This document shows, piece after piece, positions 30,045 through 38,130 of a DNA stretch of 61,779 nt. A model generated the notes under the pieces. The model did not search any database. It worked only from the letters and a program-made list of their open reading frames with translations, and was not told the origin of the DNA. This DNA comes from an uncultured Eubacteriales bacterium (GTDB taxonomy: Bacteria; Bacillota; Clostridia; Oscillospirales; Oscillospiraceae). Positions within the stretch are counted from its first letter, which is position 1. Each line of letters starts with the position of its first letter. The stretch covers positions 1-61,779 of the forward strand of contig ONBX01000015.1 in assembly GCA_900316205.1 (NCBI GenBank), given 5' to 3'. The position numbers were made by a program, and so were the translations under genes.

Positions 30045-30584
30045 TCAGGCCCGCACTTCGATTATGCTGAGCTGGGACGCCTCAAATTCCGTCTCCCTGC
30101 AAACGACCTCGGTGATCCGGGCGACCGACTCCTCGCTCAGGCCGTCAGAAGGAGCGGGCACCGCCACCGTTACGCTGCCGCTGCCGATGTACACCACGCA
30201 ATCCGCAAAGCCCTTGGCCAGCAGCAGGTTTTCCAGCTGGCTCTCCTTCATGGAGCTTGCCGCCATGACGCTGATGGCGTTCATGGCGCTGTCGATGGTC
30301 TCTTGAGAGGCCGCTTCCGAGGTGGCCGCCGTCTGCAGCAGCTCCAACGCCTCATCCCGGGAGGTCTGTCTGGTAAGTCTGGCCTCGGCAAAATAGGCGT
30401 TGGCGCCGGCTGCCACAGTCTGATTGTAGGCCGCTTCCGCACTGCTGCGCGCCTCGTCCATGGCCTGCACCATCTCCGCATCCGGCTTGCCCCAGCGTTG
30501 ATTGTAGGACCAGTTGAGCGTTACGGCCGCACAGACAAAGAGCAGCACGGCAACCATGGTGATATTCCGTTTCCTGTTTTTCAT
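30045..30584 (-). CDS. spoIIIAH: Stage III sporulation protein AH
   Basis: SpoIIIAH sits in the mother-cell membrane and binds SpoIIQ across the intermembrane space, forming part of the feeding-tube channel. The 179-residue protein has a membrane segment at 10-30, a charged helical linker (EARSSAEAAYNQT) and a YscJ/FliF-like ring-building domain at the C-terminus. The start is the ATG at 30584, 10 nt behind GGGAGG. It is the last gene of the complete spoIIIA operon. Confidence 0.93.
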   Translation of the reverse strand: MKNRKRNITMVAVLLFVCAAVTLNWSYNQRWGKPDAEMVQAMDEARSSAEAAYNQTVAAGANAYFAEARLTRQTSRDEALELLQTAATSEAASQETIDSAMNAISVMAASSMKESQLENLLLAKGFADCVVYIGSGSVTVAVPAPSDGLSEESVARITEVVCRETEFEASQLSIIEVRA

Positions 30585-30599
30585 GAGATGCATTCCTCC

Positions 30600-30929
30600 C
30601 TAAGTTTCATCCGCCAATTTCAGGACTGTGATCCGATCTGATCCGAAGCCAGTATATGAGCCAATGGCCCGAATAATATCCAATTTCACCTGTGGATCTT
30701 CCGCTCCTGTACAGGCCACCACCACGCCCTTTTCGGAGATCAGGACCATTGCCCGCCCCACGCCTCTGGTATTGCTCAGGATCTCCTGCATGCGTTCCCC
30801 GGGATCCTCGGGCAGTGCGGCGTCCTGGGAGCCGGAGGGCAGAAGCATCAGGAAGAGGCCGATGAGCAGGATCAAAAGCGGCAGTTTGAGCTTTGGAACA
30901 ATAGAGGCAAGTTTTGTTTTATGCTCCAT
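30600..30929 (-). CDS. spoIIIAG: Stage III sporulation protein AG
   Basis: SpoIIIAG forms a large ring in the mother-cell membrane channel. This member has only 109 residues, about half the length of Bacillus SpoIIIAG: one membrane segment (18-34), a short linker and the ring-building domain (VGRAMVLISEKGVVVACTGAED). I start it at the ATG at 30929 (MEHKTKL), which overlaps the end of spoIIIAF by 11 bp. The short form may lack the extra beta-ring region of the Bacillus protein. Confidence 0.9.
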   Translation of the reverse strand: MEHKTKLASIVPKLKLPLLILLIGLFLMLLPSGSQDAALPEDPGERMQEILSNTRGVGRAMVLISEKGVVVACTGAEDPQVKLDIIRAIGSYTGFGSDRITVLKLADET

Positions 30930-31401
30930 CTGTTCTCCATTCCTGCCTGCTCCGGGGGATGCCAAGCTCCGTCTCCAGAATCGAAGAGAGCAGGTTTTTT
31001 TGCTGCTCCTCCGTTTTGCCCGTGAGCACCGCCCTGTGCGGAACCCAGATCCCTTCCATGCTCCATTGCGCCGTCACCGATACATCCTCCAGATCGATTT
31101 GCATTTGCCTGGCTTTGTTCAGAATATATGTCCTGCACTCGTCCTCTATGACAGTGCGCTGCAGCTCGTCGCGAATCCTCTCCGCATCCTGTAAAAATGC
31201 CTCCTCCCGTTGACGGAGCCGGGCCGACTCCAGCGCCAGGGTATCCCAATCCGGTTCCCGGACATAGCGGAAAAGAGCAGAAAGCAGCACCACCGAGCAT
31301 ACAAAGCGCATCACGCGTTTTTCTCTCCCTTCCGGCACCAGGTTCGTCACCAGTGCGCAGAAGACAGAGAGCGCGCACAGAATTTTCACGATCTTTTCCA
31401 T
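30919..31401 (-). CDS. spoIIIAF: Stage III sporulation protein AF
   Basis: A 160-residue protein with two N-terminal membrane segments (about 4-20 and 31-46) and a soluble C-terminal domain of the same ring-forming type as AG and AH. The start is the ATG at 31401, one base after the spoIIIAE stop. A frame extended to 31605 only reads antisense to AE and is not used. Confidence 0.9.
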   Translation of the reverse strand: MEKIVKILCALSVFCALVTNLVPEGREKRVMRFVCSVVLLSALFRYVREPDWDTLALESARLRQREEAFLQDAERIRDELQRTVIEDECRTYILNKARQMQIDLEDVSVTAQWSMEGIWVPHRAVLTGKTEEQQKNLLSSILETELGIPRSRQEWRTDGA

Positions 31402-31402
31402 C

Positions 31403-32497
31403 TCACGCAGCCATCCTGATGCCGGACATGAAAGAATAAAAAAGCATGACCCCGTAGCAGCCCACCAGGCCCAGCAGCATGCCCATAGCATTCCCCGCAG
31501 TTGAGAGGAGACCAGCGTATGCATCACAGCTGCCCATCTCTGATAGCGCAGCTGCCGCTTTGAGCAGCAGCATTTTGGCAAGAAGCAAGCCAAAGGGTGC
31601 GGCACAGATGGCGCAGACCGCGATCAGGCAGAAAACGCCGGCAGAGTTCTTGATCACAGAAGCCGCTGCCAGCATGGTGGATGCAGAGTCGGAAAGGATG
31701 CCGCCCACCACGGGAAGCAGCGTGGAGATCACCGATTTTGCGGCCTTCACCGCCACTGCATCAGCACTGCCGGATATGACCCCGGAGAGGCTGATATAGG
31801 TACAGAAGCCGCCGGTAAAGAGTGTCATTGCGGTGACGATGCACCATTTCAAAAGCCTTTCTGCGGCCTTCAGGAAAGCATTCCCGGCAAGGCTCAGTGT
31901 GATGCCGACAGAGAGATATGCAGAAATCAGCGGCAGAAGGATCCGCTGCGAGAGCTCCATAAAGAGATTCGACGCGAAGCATACGGAGGCATACTTTACA
32001 GTGGCGGAGACGCTGGCACCGCAGGATGCCACCGCCAAAAAGAAGGCCGGAAATGCAGCTTTTCCGTAATCGGAAAGACGATAAAGCGTGTCCCGGGCTT
32101 CAGGGATCACACTCTCGGCACTGCCGGCCAGGAGCAGAGCTGCCGAGCAGCAGGCGGCCATCTCAGCGAAGTTGGTGACTCTGCGATCTTGCGACAGGAT
32201 CCCGGCTATGCTGCAGAGAGCTGCAATCATCACAAGCTTCCAGGCAAAACCAAGCTCTCTTTTTGCCGAGGACAAAAGCGCCTGCAGAAAACGATCCCAG
32301 AGGCGGGCAAGGGCGCCTTCGGCGTCATAACTTCCGTCCAGGCTCAGTTCACCGCTTACGCTTCTTTCCTCTTCCCCCAAGGCGCTCTCCACCCGGATGA
32401 TCTCCGTTCTCCGGGCCGTCTCCTCCTCGATATCGGCTTGTCCACGCAGGGCGGGAGAAGACAGCATCAGCAGCAGGCACAAAAACGCACGCTTCAT
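31403..32497 (-). CDS. spoIIIAE: Stage III sporulation protein AE
   Basis: A polytopic membrane protein of 364 residues with a signal-like N-terminus (MKRAFLCLLLMLSSPALRG), a charged region of about 60 residues, and eight or so membrane segments. It is a permease-like part of the SpoIIIA-SpoIIQ channel. Its ATG overlaps the spoIIIAD stop as ATGA. The longer frame to 32659 is rejected for lack of family support. Confidence 0.93.
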   Translation of the reverse strand: MKRAFLCLLLMLSSPALRGQADIEEETARRTEIIRVESALGEEERSVSGELSLDGSYDAEGALARLWDRFLQALLSSAKRELGFAWKLVMIAALCSIAGILSQDRRVTNFAEMAACCSAALLLAGSAESVIPEARDTLYRLSDYGKAAFPAFFLAVASCGASVSATVKYASVCFASNLFMELSQRILLPLISAYLSVGITLSLAGNAFLKAAERLLKWCIVTAMTLFTGGFCTYISLSGVISGSADAVAVKAAKSVISTLLPVVGGILSDSASTMLAAASVIKNSAGVFCLIAVCAICAAPFGLLLAKMLLLKAAAALSEMGSCDAYAGLLSTAGNAMGMLLGLVGCYGVMLFYSFMSGIRMAA

Positions 32498-32883
32498 CCC
32501 AGGCCCCCCATCGATTTCAAAATACTCATCAGCAGCGGCATCACAACTCCCAGGGAACAGACCGCTCCCGCGAATTCCACAGCGGAGGCGGCTGCATTCT
32601 GAGAAGCGTCCCGGCAGCTCTCCGAAGAAAAGCGGCTCACGACGGAAATGGCAAGGCATTTGAGGATCGGCGCGATCAGGCTCTCCCCTTCTCCGCCGAA
32701 AATCTGACGCAGCAGCTTTCGCAGGGACGCGAAGCCATCCAGGATCCCCAGGGATGCGGCGAGGATCCCTACCGCGCAGATCGCCCCCAGCAGCAGCGCC
32801 CCCTCCGGGTTATGGCGTTTGATCAGCAGGCCCAGGACAGCCGAGAGGAGCGCTGCCGATGCCGCCTTCATCACAAGCTCCAT
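32494..32883 (-). CDS. spoIIIAD: Stage III sporulation protein AD
   Basis: A 129-residue protein with four membrane segments, start ATG at 32883 just after the spoIIIAC stop. The motif LIKRHNPEGALLLG is typical of the family. AC and AD are related and are thought to form part of the export platform in the mother-cell membrane. Confidence 0.92.
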   Translation of the reverse strand: MELVMKAASAALLSAVLGLLIKRHNPEGALLLGAICAVGILAASLGILDGFASLRKLLRQIFGGEGESLIAPILKCLAISVVSRFSSESCRDASQNAAASAVEFAGAVCSLGVVMPLLMSILKSMGGLG

Positions 32884-32884
32884 T

Positions 32885-33079
32885 TTACAGATCAAACAGG
32901 GTTTTGATCAGCGTAAAGAGCTCGCTGATCTTCCGCACCACCATCATGAGAACCACCACCAGCGCTGTGATGGTGGTCATCAAAGCCTGTTCTTCACGGC
33001 CCGAGCGCTGCAGCAGGATATTCAGCACCGCGACCAGAATTCCCACCGCAGCGATTTTAAAGATCAGATCAACATCCAT
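32885..33079 (-). CDS. spoIIIAC: Stage III sporulation protein AC
   Basis: A 64-residue protein with two membrane segments (8-23 and 34-48) separated by QRSGREEQA, the standard size and form of SpoIIIAC. It lies 9 bp after spoIIIAB. Confidence 0.93.
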   Translation of the reverse strand: MDVDLIFKIAAVGILVAVLNILLQRSGREEQALMTTITALVVVLMMVVRKISELFTLIKTLFDL

Positions 33080-33088
33080 GTTTCCCTT

Positions 33089-33598
33089 TCAGTATAGCAG
33101 GATCACAAGCAGGGCACTCAGACTGAAGCTCAGGCCAAGAGTCACTCTTCTATCGGAAGGATACGTGCTTCTTTGCAGTTGCCACTGCTCTTTGAGGTAG
33201 GAGATGCAGGCATCCAGGAAGCGCAGCTGCAGCTCCAGATCAAACCTCCCCAGCTCCCCGCCGAGCTTTCGGATCTCGGCCTGCGTATCAAGTGCAAGCC
33301 AGGGACAGGTATCTGTCAAGGCCTTGTCCCAGATTTCTTCAAAGGAGTGTTCGCCCAGGTCATGGAAGCCGTCACGGACAGTTGATAAGAATGCTTTCCC
33401 GATCCCCTTGGCATGCGTATATGCCCTCTCGATCCCAAGGTCAAGGGGGATGCCGCCGGAGGAGAGTTCTCCCCGCAGAAGCTCCAGCGCTGCGGCCAGG
33501 GAACGATAGCCATCCTGCCGCTGTTTCTTCTCCCGCAGCAGCAGAACGCCGCCCAGAGAGGCCGCAGTCATAATCAAGATTGCTCCCAGCAGCTTCAT
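33089..33598 (-). CDS. spoIIIAB: Stage III sporulation protein AB
   Basis: A 169-residue protein with membrane segments at both ends (5-21 and about 152-168) and a helical core (LAAALELLRGELSSGGIPL). The arrangement resembles type II secretion protein F, and AB is thought to work with the AA ATPase. The ATG overlaps the spoIIIAA end by 4 bp. Confidence 0.93.
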   Translation of the reverse strand: MKLLGAILIMTAASLGGVLLLREKKQRQDGYRSLAAALELLRGELSSGGIPLDLGIERAYTHAKGIGKAFLSTVRDGFHDLGEHSFEEIWDKALTDTCPWLALDTQAEIRKLGGELGRFDLELQLRFLDACISYLKEQWQLQRSTYPSDRRVTLGLSFSLSALLVILLY

Positions 33599-34461
33599 GA
33601 GTCAAAAACCTCGAGGCGATATTCTCTTCCGGCTTTCTCAGCCCGTACAAACAACAGACGGGAAAAGAATCCTCGATCCAACAGCTGCCGATAGGCGGGC
33701 CTTTTCCTTAAATCCTCCTTGCATCCGGCGTGAGCGCTTGCCAAAATCCCGACGCCGCAGCCGCAGATTTGCGCGATAGCCCCCGCGTCTTCCTCCCGGG
33801 TGATTTCATCCATGGCAATGATCAAGGGGTTCATCCCGCGCAGCAGCATGAGAGTCGCCCTCTCCTTGGGGAGTCCGATGAGGGCGTCTGTACAGCGCCC
33901 CAGATCGAAGGCCTGTCCTGCCTCGTCCAGGGAGGCAAGCTCATTTCGTTCGTCCGCTACCCCCACGCGGTAACCGTTATCGGATAGTCTGCGGATCATT
34001 TCCCGCAGGGCTGTAGTCTTCCCGGCCCCCGGAGGTCCGACCACAAGGGTATTCTGAAAGCCCTCACGCAAAAGCGCATCGATCTGCTCCCGGCAGATGC
34101 CCCGGCACTCCCGCGGAATGCGGACAGCAAGAGAGCTCACGTGACGAAACACGCTTGTCTTACCCTCTGCCATGGCGGCCATACCGCAAACGCCGATACG
34201 GATGCCCCTGAAGTTGACAAAGCCTTCCGAAAGAGAGGACTGGGCCGCGTGCAGAGAGGCTCCCGTTGCTTTCTCCAGGATCCTGAGCAGGTCGGTTTCC
34301 GTCACGCCATCACGGGAAAAGGGTAACTCTTCCCCCCGCAGCAGAAGGCTTGGCCTTCTGCCTGTACGAAGGCGGATCTCTTCCGCTTCCCGGATTCGAA
34401 GCCCCACAGCCTCTCTCCAGTGCGCGGGCAGCAGACTCAACGCCAGCGCTTCCTTGTCCAT
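33595..34461 (-). CDS. spoIIIAA: Stage III sporulation protein AA (ATPase)
   Basis: The 288-residue ATPase that drives the SpoIIIA apparatus, similar to type II/IV secretion ATPases. Walker A GPPGAGKTT is at 142-150, followed by DERNELAS and the Walker B-like LIIAMDEITREEDA. The N-terminal domain carries EIRLRTGRRPSL. It opens the operon; a SigE-type promoter lies just upstream, as expected for mother-cell expression. The ribosome binding site (GGGAAG) is weak. Confidence 0.95.
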   Translation of the reverse strand: MDKEALALSLLPAHWREAVGLRIREAEEIRLRTGRRPSLLLRGEELPFSRDGVTETDLLRILEKATGASLHAAQSSLSEGFVNFRGIRIGVCGMAAMAEGKTSVFRHVSSLAVRIPRECRGICREQIDALLREGFQNTLVVGPPGAGKTTALREMIRRLSDNGYRVGVADERNELASLDEAGQAFDLGRCTDALIGLPKERATLMLLRGMNPLIIAMDEITREEDAGAIAQICGCGVGILASAHAGCKEDLRKRPAYRQLLDRGFFSRLLFVRAEKAGREYRLEVFDS

Positions 34462-34569: not shown

Positions 34570-35037
34570 ATGGAAATGAAGATCATGCTCAGCGGTGCGC
34601 TGGTTCTGGGAGGTTTTTTGTGGAGCTATCTGTTCCTGCGCCAGTTCCTGTTCAATCTTCTGGTTGCCAACCCCCTCATTAAAAAAATGAACAGCCTCCA
34701 GCCGGAGCTCATCGGTGTGGGCGCCAAGCGCTATACGATGATCTCCAATCTGGTCAGCATCCTTGTGGGCGGCGCCATCGCCTTTGCAGTGCTGTACTTC
34801 TGCCCGCTCTATATCAAGATCTCCTTTGCCGTCGGCGCAGTGGCAGCCTTTCTGTTCATCTTCTTTCGTACCAAGCCGGAAAACCGGGAGAGCTTCGAGC
34901 TCTTCACCAACGCCTATTACCGCTTTGTACCCGATGATGAGCTGCGCACCCTGCTTTACAAGAAGGAATACAAAAAGATCAAAGCCCGCCTGCGGGAGAT
35001 GGACATTCAGGGCAATTTCGTTCCGGAATTCAAATGA
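34570..35037 (+). CDS. Hypothetical membrane protein (three segments)
   Basis: A 155-residue protein that I do not recognise. It has membrane segments at about 5-32, 60-80 and 84-98, with a 20-residue amphipathic stretch (PLIKKMNSLQPELIGVGAK) between the first two. A charged cytoplasmic tail follows (ELRTLLYKKEYKKIKARLREMD). TTGGAGGATCCTCTT precedes the ATG. It is monocistronic, with its own SigA promoter and terminator, and diverges from spoIIIAA. Expression is expected in growing cells. Confidence 0.75.
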   Translation: MEMKIMLSGALVLGGFLWSYLFLRQFLFNLLVANPLIKKMNSLQPELIGVGAKRYTMISNLVSILVGGAIAFAVLYFCPLYIKISFAVGAVAAFLFIFFRTKPENRESFELFTNAYYRFVPDDELRTLLYKKEYKKIKARLREMDIQGNFVPEFK

Positions 35038-35106: not shown

Positions 35107-35670
35107 TCAGGTTTCAGGCCAGGGACTCAGCACTCCTTTTTTCACAAGCCAGGCGTGATCTGCCAGCTTCGCCAGCGGAGTATCAGACTGAGAATCGGAA
35201 TAGAAATTCTCAATATGCCCGTCCGGAACCTCCAGGCGGAAGCGGCGGACCTTTTCCTCGTCATGGCAGTTGAGACCGTGGATCTTCCCGGTATAGGGAT
35301 TCATGGGCGTGGCAATAAGGGATACGCCAAGCTCCTCGCAAATAGGCCGCAGCAGGAAATCCGGAGAAGCGGAAACGATCAGATCATCGCTGCGCTTTTG
35401 TTCCAGATACCAGGACTCCAGATTTTGCCGATGCTCAGCCCAGAACTCCGAGACGATGCGCTCCACGTCGTCCAGTCTTGGAAGGAAGGAAAAGGCCTGC
35501 TCTTTGAGTTCCTTCGTCTCCGCCTTTCGACGGAGAGCCTGGATGCCGGTGGCAGTCACTCCGGGAAGGCAGTGAAGCACAGCCCGCGGATAATGCCGCA
35601 GACAGTACATCACAAAGCAATAGGAGCTGTCCGGCTGGAAGATGGTCTGATCAAAATCGTAGACATTCAT
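35107..35670 (-). CDS. HAD-IB family phosphatase
   Basis: A 187-residue haloacid dehalogenase-type phosphatase of the SerB-like IB group. The catalytic DFDQT (residues 5-9) has both Asp; motif II is SASP near 100; motif III/IV is FYSDSQSDTPL near 155. Members act on phosphoserine, phosphocholine, nucleotides or lipids; the substrate here is open. GAGGGATCCTGCTT precedes the ATG. It lies 19 bp after the P-type ATPase homologue and is probably in the same operon. Confidence 0.88.
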   Translation of the reverse strand: MNVYDFDQTIFQPDSSYCFVMYCLRHYPRAVLHCLPGVTATGIQALRRKAETKELKEQAFSFLPRLDDVERIVSEFWAEHRQNLESWYLEQKRSDDLIVSASPDFLLRPICEELGVSLIATPMNPYTGKIHGLNCHDEEKVRRFRLEVPDGHIENFYSDSQSDTPLAKLADHAWLVKKGVLSPWPET

Positions 35671-35689: not shown

Positions 35690-37660
35690 TTATTTGAGTC
35701 CGAAGCTGCGCAGGCTGTTGATCATGGAAAGCGCCGTGGAGACAGTCCCCAGGAAAGCAGCCACAGGAATGGAGATTGAGCCAAAGAGGGCAAGGATCAG
35801 GACAAGACACTTCACAGCCGACAGCAGCCCCAGGTTCTCCCAAAGGATCAGGCGCATACCGCGGGCGATGCGCATGGAAACAGGCAGCTTTTCGATGTCC
35901 CGGTCCAGCAGCAGGATGTCAGCCGCATCCGCCTCGTCCCAGGCATGCAGAGCATCCAGCGCAAGACCCACGTCCGCCGCCTCCAGCATGGGGACGTCAT
36001 TGACTCCATCTCCCACGAAGCCCACACTGGTCCCTTTGCCTTTGCCGGAGATCAGATAGCGGATGGCGGAGACCTTGGCGTCAGGCGTCAGTTCCGTGCG
36101 AAGCAGGTCAAAGCCCAGGGAAGAAGCAAGGGGGCGAGAGGAAGAAAGCACATCCCCCGTCAGCATCACAAGCTGCTGAACGCCCTGACTTCTCAGTTCC
36201 TCCAGCGCATCAAAGGCGCCTTCTCTGGTCTTGTCGGTGACCAGGATATGGCCCCAATAGCGGTTTTCCACCGCCACATGGATGGCAGAACCGGCCCGGG
36301 AGGGCACGGTATAACGAATGCCGTGCTCCTGGAGCAAATAGGCGTTGCCCACATAGACATGCCGCCCTTCGATGAAGGCGCTGACGCCCCGGCCGGGGAT
36401 CTCCTCCACCTCCAGCACGCTCTCCGCAACATCAGGCGTCCAGTTGGCAGCCAGTTTCAGAAGCTGGGCAATGGGATGGCGGGAATAGCTCTCAGCCGCA
36501 GCGGCGATGGCCAGAAGATCCTCCGCGCCGCAGCCGTTGGGAAATACACCTGTAATTTCAAATCGACCGCCGGTAATGGTGCCGGTCTTGCCGAAAACCA
36601 TCGTTTTTGTCTGAGCCAGGATCTCCAGGCAATCGTGTCCCTTGCTGAGGATGCCGTTGAAGATCCCGCTCATCTCACCGCCCAGGCAGGCCAGAGAGAC
36701 GGAGATCATCAGCGCGCTGGGAGAAGCCGCCAGCAGGAAAATCACCGCGCGCCGAAGATTCGGCAGCCACTGGCCGGTGATCACAGAAGGCACAAGCAGA
36801 AGCAGCAGAGCAAGCACGCCCACGACCGGTGCGAACCAGGTGCAGATCCGGTCGGAAAGCCGCTCCTGGGTGGTCTCATACCGGGCGGCATCCTGCACAT
36901 CGCGCAAAAGGCTGGCCGCAGCGGACTCGCCGAAAGGCTTTGTCACCTGCACATCGATGACGGCGCCATGGTTGACGCTGCCGGAGAAGACCCGATCCCC
37001 GACGCCGCAGGTATGGACGGTGCTGTTCCCGGTCAGGATCGAAAGATCCAATTCCGTCACACCGGATACGATGGTCCCGTCCAGCGGGACGACTTCCCCG
37101 ATCCCGACGCGGACGATCTGCCCGGGATCGACGGTCTCGGGCATGACCTCGGCGGTCTTGTCTCCGATCAGAAGCTTTGCCTTTTCCGGCAGCTTATCCC
37201 GCATCAGGTCAAAGGCAGCGTCCGCTCTGGCCAGGGCATAGGACTCGAAGACCTGGGCAAGTCTGTAAAGGATCGCCGCGATGGCGGCGCCGGCTTCCTC
37301 ACCGATGCAAAAGCCGCCTATGATACCGAGCAGGACCAGAACATCCTCCTCCGGCAGCTTTCTGTTCAGTGCATCCTGCAGGATCTGAAGGATTCGGGGC
37401 AGGAAGGCAAAAAACGCCGCAAGGGCATAGATCAGCACAGAGACCGCATGCGGAACCGGCAGCAGGATGCCCGCCATAAAGAGCAGCGTTGCCGCTATGA
37501 CGAGAAACATCTCCTGCACGGAGAACACGCGGTTGTAGCGTTTGGGTTTATAATGGATCTTCTCCCGCTTGAAGAGCTTTGGAAGCTCCGGAACGCGGAA
37601 GGAGGGCAGCTGTATCTTGAACTTGTTTTTATGTTCGGAAGGCGCAAAGTGCCTGGCCAT
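35690..37660 (-). CDS. P-type ATPase homologue lacking catalytic residues
   Basis: A 656-residue protein with the full architecture of P1B metal pumps: a basic N-terminus, membrane pairs, actuator domain, phosphorylation and nucleotide domains, and a C-terminal membrane pair. The phosphorylated Asp of DKTGT is Gly here: the codon at 36592-36590 is GGC, giving FGKTGT with G357. The actuator TGES is TGNS (N212). The metal-binding CPC of the pore is SPS (313-315). The nucleotide-domain SRHPIAQ and hinge GDGVNDVP remain. Three lost motifs argue against a working pump, but the frame is intact. The start is the ATG at 37660, not the GTG at 37669, from the GGGG ribosome binding site. A regulatory or scaffold role is inference. 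Confidence 0.88.
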   Translation of the reverse strand: MARHFAPSEHKNKFKIQLPSFRVPELPKLFKREKIHYKPKRYNRVFSVQEMFLVIAATLLFMAGILLPVPHAVSVLIYALAAFFAFLPRILQILQDALNRKLPEEDVLVLLGIIGGFCIGEEAGAAIAAILYRLAQVFESYALARADAAFDLMRDKLPEKAKLLIGDKTAEVMPETVDPGQIVRVGIGEVVPLDGTIVSGVTELDLSILTGNSTVHTCGVGDRVFSGSVNHGAVIDVQVTKPFGESAAASLLRDVQDAARYETTQERLSDRICTWFAPVVGVLALLLLLVPSVITGQWLPNLRRAVIFLLAASPSALMISVSLACLGGEMSGIFNGILSKGHDCLEILAQTKTMVFGKTGTITGGRFEITGVFPNGCGAEDLLAIAAAAESYSRHPIAQLLKLAANWTPDVAESVLEVEEIPGRGVSAFIEGRHVYVGNAYLLQEHGIRYTVPSRAGSAIHVAVENRYWGHILVTDKTREGAFDALEELRSQGVQQLVMLTGDVLSSSRPLASSLGFDLLRTELTPDAKVSAIRYLISGKGKGTSVGFVGDGVNDVPMLEAADVGLALDALHAWDEADAADILLLDRDIEKLPVSMRIARGMRLILWENLGLLSAVKCLVLILALFGSISIPVAAFLGTVSTALSMINSLRSFGLK

Positions 37661-37701
37661 ATTCTTCACCCCTATTTTGGGCTTCTCTCTTCATACGGGA
37701 T

Positions 37702-37730
37702 ATTGTACTCTTATTTTGCCCGCAGGTAAA
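37702..37730 (-). promoter_or_regulatory. Candidate SigA promoter of the P-type ATPase homologue
   Basis: TTTACC (37725-37730), 17-bp spacer and TACAAT (37702-37707) on the minus strand, about 40 bp before the start. Confidence 0.55.
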
Positions 37731-37889: not shown

Positions 37890-37929
37890 ACGGGCAAAAA
37901 CCCAAATTGATCGGAAGGAGATGCAACAC

Positions 37930-38130
37930 ATGTCTACCAATTCCAGCAATCATCTTGTGAACCCCGCTGCCCGCGAGGCCATGGACAAGTTCAAGATGGA
38001 AGCCGCTTCTGAGGTTGGCGTCAACCTGAAGAACGGTTACAACGGCGAGCTCACCAGCCGCCAGGCCGGTTCCGTCGGCGGCCAGATGGTCAAGAAGATG
38101 ATCGAGGCCTATGAGAACGGCATGAAGTAA
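37930..38130 (+). CDS. Small acid-soluble spore protein, alpha/beta type
   Basis: A 66-residue SASP that coats and protects spore DNA. It has ASEVGVNLKNGYNG, the region cut by the germination protease, and the conserved GSVGGQMVKKMIEAYE C-terminus. The N-terminus is Asn/Ser rich, as usual. The start is the ATG at 37930, 9 nt behind GGAAGGAG; an ATG at 37921 abuts the ribosome binding site. Expression in the forespore is known for the family. Confidence 0.95.
   Translation: MSTNSSNHLVNPAAREAMDKFKMEAASEVGVNLKNGYNGELTSRQAGSVGGQMVKKMIEAYENGMK

Follow-up and report, generated by a model that had tools for sequence, protein, structure and literature searches.

A probable P1B-type ATPase pseudoenzyme, its genus-wide clade and an adjacent HAD phosphatase gene

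P-type ATPases are defined by an aspartate that becomes phosphorylated. The window examined here, a stretch of 61,779 nucleotides from an uncultured bacterium of the Oscillospiraceae (contig ONBX01000015.1, assembly GCA_900316205.1), encodes a P1B-type ATPase homologue that has no residue left for the usual phosphoenzyme, for the actuator glutamate or for the known metal ligands. Judged from its conservation, this protein is probably a former zinc/cadmium (Zn/Cd) pump retained as a non-hydrolysing, ATP-binding sensor or scaffold that would work with an HAD phosphatase encoded behind it, a reading to which we give a probability of about 0.6. The gene is under purifying selection, the nucleotide-binding head is best conserved, and constraint is inverted relative to intact pumps, being raised in the nucleotide-binding (N) domain and lowered in the membrane part. 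New here are the clade itself, the inversion of constraint, an intact counterpart of the gene pair and the HAD as partner; no paper on P-type ATPase pseudoenzymes was among the matches listed from a literature search that lacked most subscription papers. Found in at least 74 related genomes from a group of rumen bacteria, the clade provides natural variants in which to study the function of a head that has no pump to serve, and the intact gene pair allows a comparison; it also warns against the annotation as a cadmium/zinc exporter borne by some public records of these genes.

Catalytic motifs of the window protein and its close homologues

The product of the gene at 35690..37660 on the minus strand is called the window protein below, and the coordinates of its motifs and neighbors are collected in Table 1. 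Its reading frame (35690-37669, minus strand) is that of an open, full-length P1B-type ATPase homologue; ATG 37660 is the likely start, because the upstream GTG falls within the ribosome-binding sequence GGGGTG. Membership of the P1B subfamily by descent is indicated by the NCBIfam profile TIGR01525 (heavy metal translocating P-type ATPase), which scores 380.5 bits against a curated cut-off of 346.25, and by a fold match over 600 residues; Pfam finds E1-E2_ATPase (4.9e-33) and Hydrolase (2.2e-22). A first-pass annotation had described FGKTGT, TGN and SPS in a full-length open frame, and this description holds, with the codon positions as claimed. The three losses are real, but they were not the whole: the aspartate of membrane helix 6 (M6), part of FGD or FAD in intact Zn/Cd-type pumps and a metal ligand there, had been overlooked and is replaced by Gly641, and the losses extend by varied routes through a genus-wide clade. 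Phospho-Asp, TGE glutamate, CPC and M6 aspartate are thus all replaced in the window protein.

Close homologues were compared in a set of 121 sequences, comprising the window protein and the 120 homologues listed of 1547 found (43-99% identity). The phospho-Asp is absent from all 121 (119 Gly, 2 Ser), both CPC cysteines together occur in none, and the actuator glutamate, which is Asn in the window protein, persists in 11. By comparison, K361, E393, P399, G428 and both aspartates of GDGxND are present in 121/121, and H398 in 104/121, the rest having Asn. The same gene is found in public assemblies at 92-93% identity. Since the aspartate is missing from the window protein, from all 120 listed homologues and from the public assemblies, read error or chance is ruled out, and the motif loss is a property of the lineage. 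Close homologues with DKTGT, TGES and CPC, which the earlier annotation had named as the mark of an ordinary pump, were looked for and not found; the nearest intact relative found belongs to another genus and is 38-40% identical. A search of 295 genomes of the order for the pattern F-G-K-T-G, which is blind to other replacements and included few genomes of the window's own genus, gave matches in 7 of them, and only the match in the window's own genome is a P-type gene.

Distribution and constraint within the genus

Matches at E 1e-60 occur in 100 of 102 genomes of the genus, mostly two per genome; where inspected, one is the pseudo-ATPase gene and the other an intact pump. A survey of pseudo-ATPase loci in all but 25 of the 102 genomes found an HAD-IB gene downstream on the same strand in 74 loci: directly behind in 48 and again in L008 (split frame), beyond a nitroreductase-like gene in 23, and at middle distance in 2. 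The nitroreductase-like gene, labelled by eye, encodes about 170 residues (for example in L036, L118, L126 and L138). In L008 (genome G369) the gene is split in two frames, through decay or an assembly slip. Setting aside L008, L046 (at a contig edge) and L047 (586 residues) leaves 71 full-length members. Three further loci with no HAD gene found behind, L148, L152 and L051, were counted apart and also lack the phospho-Asp (Asn, Asn and Gly).

Among the 71 members the phospho-Asp position holds D in 28, G in 20, E in 9, S in 7, N in 5, and C and T in 1 each. The actuator glutamate is retained in 8, and both CPC cysteines only in L040, where TGE is replaced by SGD and GDG by GDA. Phospho-Asp and TGE glutamate occur together in 3 members, none with CPC, so that the full set is present in 0/71; the M6 aspartate, invariant in 11 active pumps other than CopA, is kept in 19. 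The first-pass annotation had relied on retention of the hinge. GDGVND is indeed intact in the window protein, but the first hinge aspartate is replaced in 26 of the 71, and it is the nucleotide-binding head that is chiefly conserved.

A quick tree of 86 rows, computed with the motif columns removed, places the members and their three HAD-less kin on one branch apart from intact pumps (support 99 in the SH-like approximate likelihood ratio test, SH-aLRT). All 20 members with Gly fall into a single clade (100) that excludes L051, a long-branched row likewise with Gly, and the Asp position changed at least 9 times over all 86 rows. L148 (G379) and L152 (G328) form the earliest branch of the clade, with Asn for Asp, TGD, CLS and a retained M6 aspartate; G379 has an HAD gene elsewhere. 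The 12 active rows used for comparison had to carry D, TGE and CPC to be selected, which fixes their motif counts by construction; six of them (L024, L025, L026, L029, L030 and L031) were seen with at most about 1.5 kb of flank, and the 11-row set omits the CopA row, L031.

Selection was gauged from the ratio of nonsynonymous to synonymous substitution rates (dN/dS). Between the window gene and two near species the ratio is 0.058 and 0.059, and between those two 0.055. The comparison with an active P1B pump, which the first-pass annotation had proposed, gives 0.073-0.102 for the pump in the same three genomes, where a neighboring Y-family polymerase gene has 0.046-0.065 and the HAD gene 0.041-0.079. 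In pairs of these genomes with the more distant G352 the two proteins have similar ratios, 0.19-0.25 for the pseudoenzyme and 0.20-0.23 for the pump (protein identity 66-67% versus 86-88%), but those of the pseudoenzyme are unreliable because its dS is near or above 1. With catalytic residues lost and fold and purifying selection kept, the protein qualifies as a pseudoenzyme at the level of sequence, and the earlier view that this was a selected pseudoenzyme rather than decay or a single error is borne out by homologues, dN/dS and tree.

The pattern of constraint was examined by comparing mean pairwise identity in the 71 pseudoenzymes with that in the 11 active rows. Overall it is 0.38 versus 0.56. 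In the membrane it falls to 0.26 versus 0.54 (helices 1-4), 0.31 versus 0.66 (helices 5-6) and 0.28 versus 0.59 (helices 7-8), and in the actuator domain to 0.38 versus 0.57; the P domain reaches 0.49-0.51 versus 0.59-0.61, and the N domain 0.51 versus 0.46. The N domain thus ranks lowest among the domains of intact pumps, the N-terminal tail excepted, and in the pseudoenzymes it shares first place with the second P-domain part. Residues invariant in the 11 active pumps are the same in at least 90% of the pseudo clade at 0/19, 0/32 and 1/17 membrane positions, compared with 14/20 in the N domain, 10/21 in the actuator and 5/13 and 9/37 in the two P-domain parts. K361, T362, E393, G428, G441, D506 and K532 are conserved in 71/71, and P399 (70), N442 (70), G426 (66) and H398 (65) nearly so. 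Twelve positions have become newly near-invariant, 11 of them in the cytoplasmic head (including P456, F486, D487, R493, F520 and Y538) and one in the tail (H7). A protein that relied on its nucleotide-binding head and on anchorage in the membrane, with no need of a path for transport, would be expected to show this pattern.

Origin of the gene pair and proposed role

The HAD gene encodes D5, D7, T9, S102, K140, D159 and D163 in all 74 genus loci and in every one of the 61 sequences in a broader alignment; as its catalytic residues are all retained, the protein is expected to have phosphatase activity. TIGR01488, the profile of the general HAD-IB subfamily, is the only one to score above cut-off, matches to specific profiles falling below theirs, and a sequence search of the PDB up to E 0.1 gave no match. 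A fold search returned first a protein of unknown function and then mainly phosphoserine phosphatases, the fold being of phosphoserine-phosphatase type. No HAD gene was found behind any of the 12 intact pumps, within the short flanks noted for six of them. More widely, the HAD gene occurs in 20 of 147 genomes of the order and in 39 of 200 of the family, counts that both include the window's own genome and, for the family, three further genus members. Of the 20 HAD loci examined in other genera, two have an intact P1B pump before the HAD gene (genus g234) and three a PEG-motif P-type ATPase behind it (g185). In the g185 loci (L186, L187 and L188) the HAD gene precedes an unrelated PEG-motif P-type ATPase with DKTGT, a second link of this HAD to P-type ATPases.

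The g234 loci bear on origin. In L194 an ArsR/SmtB regulator (assigned by NCBIfam), a P1B pump and the HAD gene stand in a row, and the pump has TGEA, CPC, DKTGT, GDGVND, the M6 aspartate and a His-rich N-terminus; in L191, at a contig edge, the end of a pump with TGES, CPC, DKTGT and GDGIND is followed by the HAD gene. As in the window, the order is P1B then HAD, with HAD proteins 49-51% identical; unlike in the window, the catalytic motifs are intact, and L194 carries the His-rich N-terminus and an ArsR gene before the pump, whereas no ArsR gene was seen by eye in the window region. A careful tree of 36 rows, chosen from the 86 and the two g234 pumps, makes the g234 pumps the sister branch of the pseudo clade (bootstrap/SH-aLRT 99/97; pseudo clade 100/100). 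The intact pair and its sister position therefore suggest that a working pump operon gave rise to the pseudoenzyme; read most simply, the two genes were already paired, with the pump still working, before pumping was lost.

We propose that, in the ancestry of the genus, a Zn/Cd-type pump gene with an HAD-IB gene behind it lost pumping while the protein was retained. Binding of ATP (or ADP) without hydrolysis is predicted from conservation of the nucleotide site, E393 and G428 being invariant in the 71 members. In animal P-type pumps, replacing the aspartate with a neutral residue tightens ATP binding, although text to this effect was not found in the literature searched; loss of the aspartate charge would be expected to strengthen ATP binding, if it has any effect on it, and to keep the protein in an E1-like state. 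The head would then be a membrane-anchored nucleotide sensor or scaffold whose newly conserved face is offered to a partner. The HAD phosphatase would be the most likely one, and the pseudoenzyme would control either its activity or its location. The routes of loss are replacement of the aspartate by Gly, Glu, Ser, Asn, Cys or Thr, or, where it is kept, loss of TGE; on the last route phosphorylation would be possible but hardly released, so the cycle might also be stopped. A bolder version, which we hold only tentatively, is that these proteins are natural P-type "receptors": within one genus a pump operon would have been turned, by several routes, into a non-cycling membrane-anchored ATP/ADP sensor that controls an HAD protein through a newly evolved face of the head.

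Several observations weigh against this account. The phospho-Asp is kept in 28/71 members, and in three of these the actuator glutamate is kept as well, though not CPC, so that phosphorylation, or transport of a different ion, could persist in some. Possible residual activity in the Asp-keeping members is the chief difficulty for explaining the whole clade in one way. H398 is N or S in 6/71, and the second P-domain part retains so few pump-invariant residues (9/37) that the head is not untouched. The E1-like state appears in a structure model read without an active-pump control. In absolute terms the pseudoenzyme changes faster than the intact pump in the same three genomes (dN 0.039-0.043 versus 0.012-0.022), and its low dN/dS arises because dS is high (0.67-0.77 versus 0.16-0.21). 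As to the partner, another gene intervenes in 23 of the 74 loci, no P-type gene was found alongside 15 of the 20 HAD loci of other genera (some of these stretches being short), and co-conservation of the HAD gene could be operon inertia.

Table 1. Features of the pseudo-ATPase locus in the window (promoter-like elements were labelled by eye)
Feature	Coordinates	Strand	Remarks
Pseudo P1B-type ATPase gene	35690..37660	-	656 aa from ATG 37660; 659 aa if GTG 37669
GGC codon (Gly) replacing phosphorylated Asp of DKTGT (FGKTGT)	36590..36592	-	
TGNS replacing TGES, actuator domain	37022..37033	-	
SPS replacing CPC metal site	36716..36724	-	
HP motif of nucleotide-binding domain, retained	36473..36478	-	H 65/71, P 70/71
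GRG (GxG) of nucleotide-binding domain, retained	36386..36394	-	G426 66/71, G428 71/71
GDGVND hinge, intact in window protein, changed in other members	35996..36013	-	First Asp 45/71, last Asp 55/71
HAD-IB family phosphatase gene, catalytic residues intact	35107..35670	-	19 bases downstream of pseudo-ATPase gene
TTTACC, -35-like element	37725..37730	-	Identical in 8/8 aligned upstream regions
TACAAT, -10-like element, 17-base spacer	37702..37707	-	Some of the 8 regions have TAGAAT or TAAAAT
Alpha/beta-type SASP gene, divergent neighbor	37921..38130	+	Context; probably not a functional partner
Membrane protein of 152 aa, convergent, no firm family	34579..35037	+	Context
spoIIIA operon	30045..34461	-	Context; IIIAA by Pfam, other members presumed from gene order

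A second, even more reduced P1B-like protein of about 545-640 residues is encoded at G000:C65:43480-45144 (L032:1441-3108, minus strand) and at 13 genus loci (L168-L180). Its actuator domain is unaligned in 14/14, GDGxND is replaced (YANGxE and the like), the HP motif is SEQPFAK-like, and DKxG is retained in 13/14. Its dN/dS to a near species is 0.068, and near-full-length matches occur also in the family genera g234, g185, g228, g172, g214 and g209.

Alternative explanations and known systems

Continued transport, as an ATP-gated channel or facilitator or, in the Asp-keeping members, as a pump for another substrate, is unlikely. The eight long membrane helices of the model, the open frames and the members with Asp (three of them with the TGE glutamate) would suit it. 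A shared substrate path should nevertheless leave conserved membrane residues, and only the N-terminal tail is less conserved than the membrane part, in which almost no pump-invariant position is kept; for members of the Gly clade normal turnover is impossible. It is quite unlikely, too, that the protein is a dead regulatory subunit that pairs with and tunes the cell's own intact P1B pump. Such a pump is present in the same genome (L030, with DKTGT, TGES and CPC), and most genus genomes have the two strong matches, but divergence is greatest in the membrane part, the expected site of contact between pump subunits, the two genes lie on separate contigs (C43 and C53), and such intact pumps occur in other families as well (L024, L025 and L029).

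A role in sporulation, tied to the adjacent spoIIIA operon and the gene for a small acid-soluble spore protein (SASP), is very unlikely. The adjacency of SASP, HAD and spoIIIA that the first-pass annotation pointed to is real, and it recurs: a SASP gene lies within 1.5 kb in 38/74 loci, spoIIIAA is on the stretch in 41/74, and either is present in 58/74, many stretches ending at contig edges. A functional link to sporulation was nevertheless not demonstrable. The convergent gene separates the pseudo-ATPase from spoIIIA, the pseudo-ATPase gene has its own housekeeping-type promoter-like site (TTTACC-17-TACAAT) in all eight aligned upstream regions, and the sister operon carries an ArsR regulator; the spore-gene neighborhood is probably inherited gene order and incidental. 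The convergent 152-residue membrane protein is conserved between HAD and spoIIIA in many loci and scores below the Pfam cut-off for every family. Gene decay, a chimeric bin or sequencing error, to which the split frame of L008 and the faster change of the pseudoenzyme might speak, is scarcely credible given 71 full-length open frames, dN/dS of 0.055-0.059 and the missing aspartate in 121/121, and for the window gene itself error or decay is refuted by the homologue counts and dN/dS.

A membrane-anchored nucleotide sensor or scaffold working with the HAD protein remains the preferred reading. Structure alignment A1 comprises 81 of the 121 sequences, near-copies removed, and absence of a family from the fold lists was not taken as evidence. 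ZntA-type P1B (Zn/Cd/Pb) ATPases (PDB 7qbz, 4umv) share with the window protein the whole fold, the domain order, the nucleotide-binding domain and TIGR01525; they differ in that the window protein is without the phospho-Asp, the TGE glutamate, CPC and the M6 aspartate, and pump membrane residues are not conserved. The engineered ATP7B mutant C983S/C985S/D1027A (PDB 7xun, 7xuk), whose altered positions we take to be CPC and the phospho-Asp, likewise has the CPC cysteine pair changed to serine and the phospho-Asp changed to a small neutral residue, and the model of the window protein matches 7xun over 605 residues at 3.4 A. That mutant was made in the laboratory and carries Ala, whereas the window protein is natural, fixed in its clade and carries Gly. 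KdpB of KdpFABC, which hydrolyses ATP, is among the lower fold matches of the model. According to one account (PMC3573892), KdpB is a P-type ATPase that, like the window protein, carries no typical ion-binding motif itself, but unlike the window protein it retains DKTGT.
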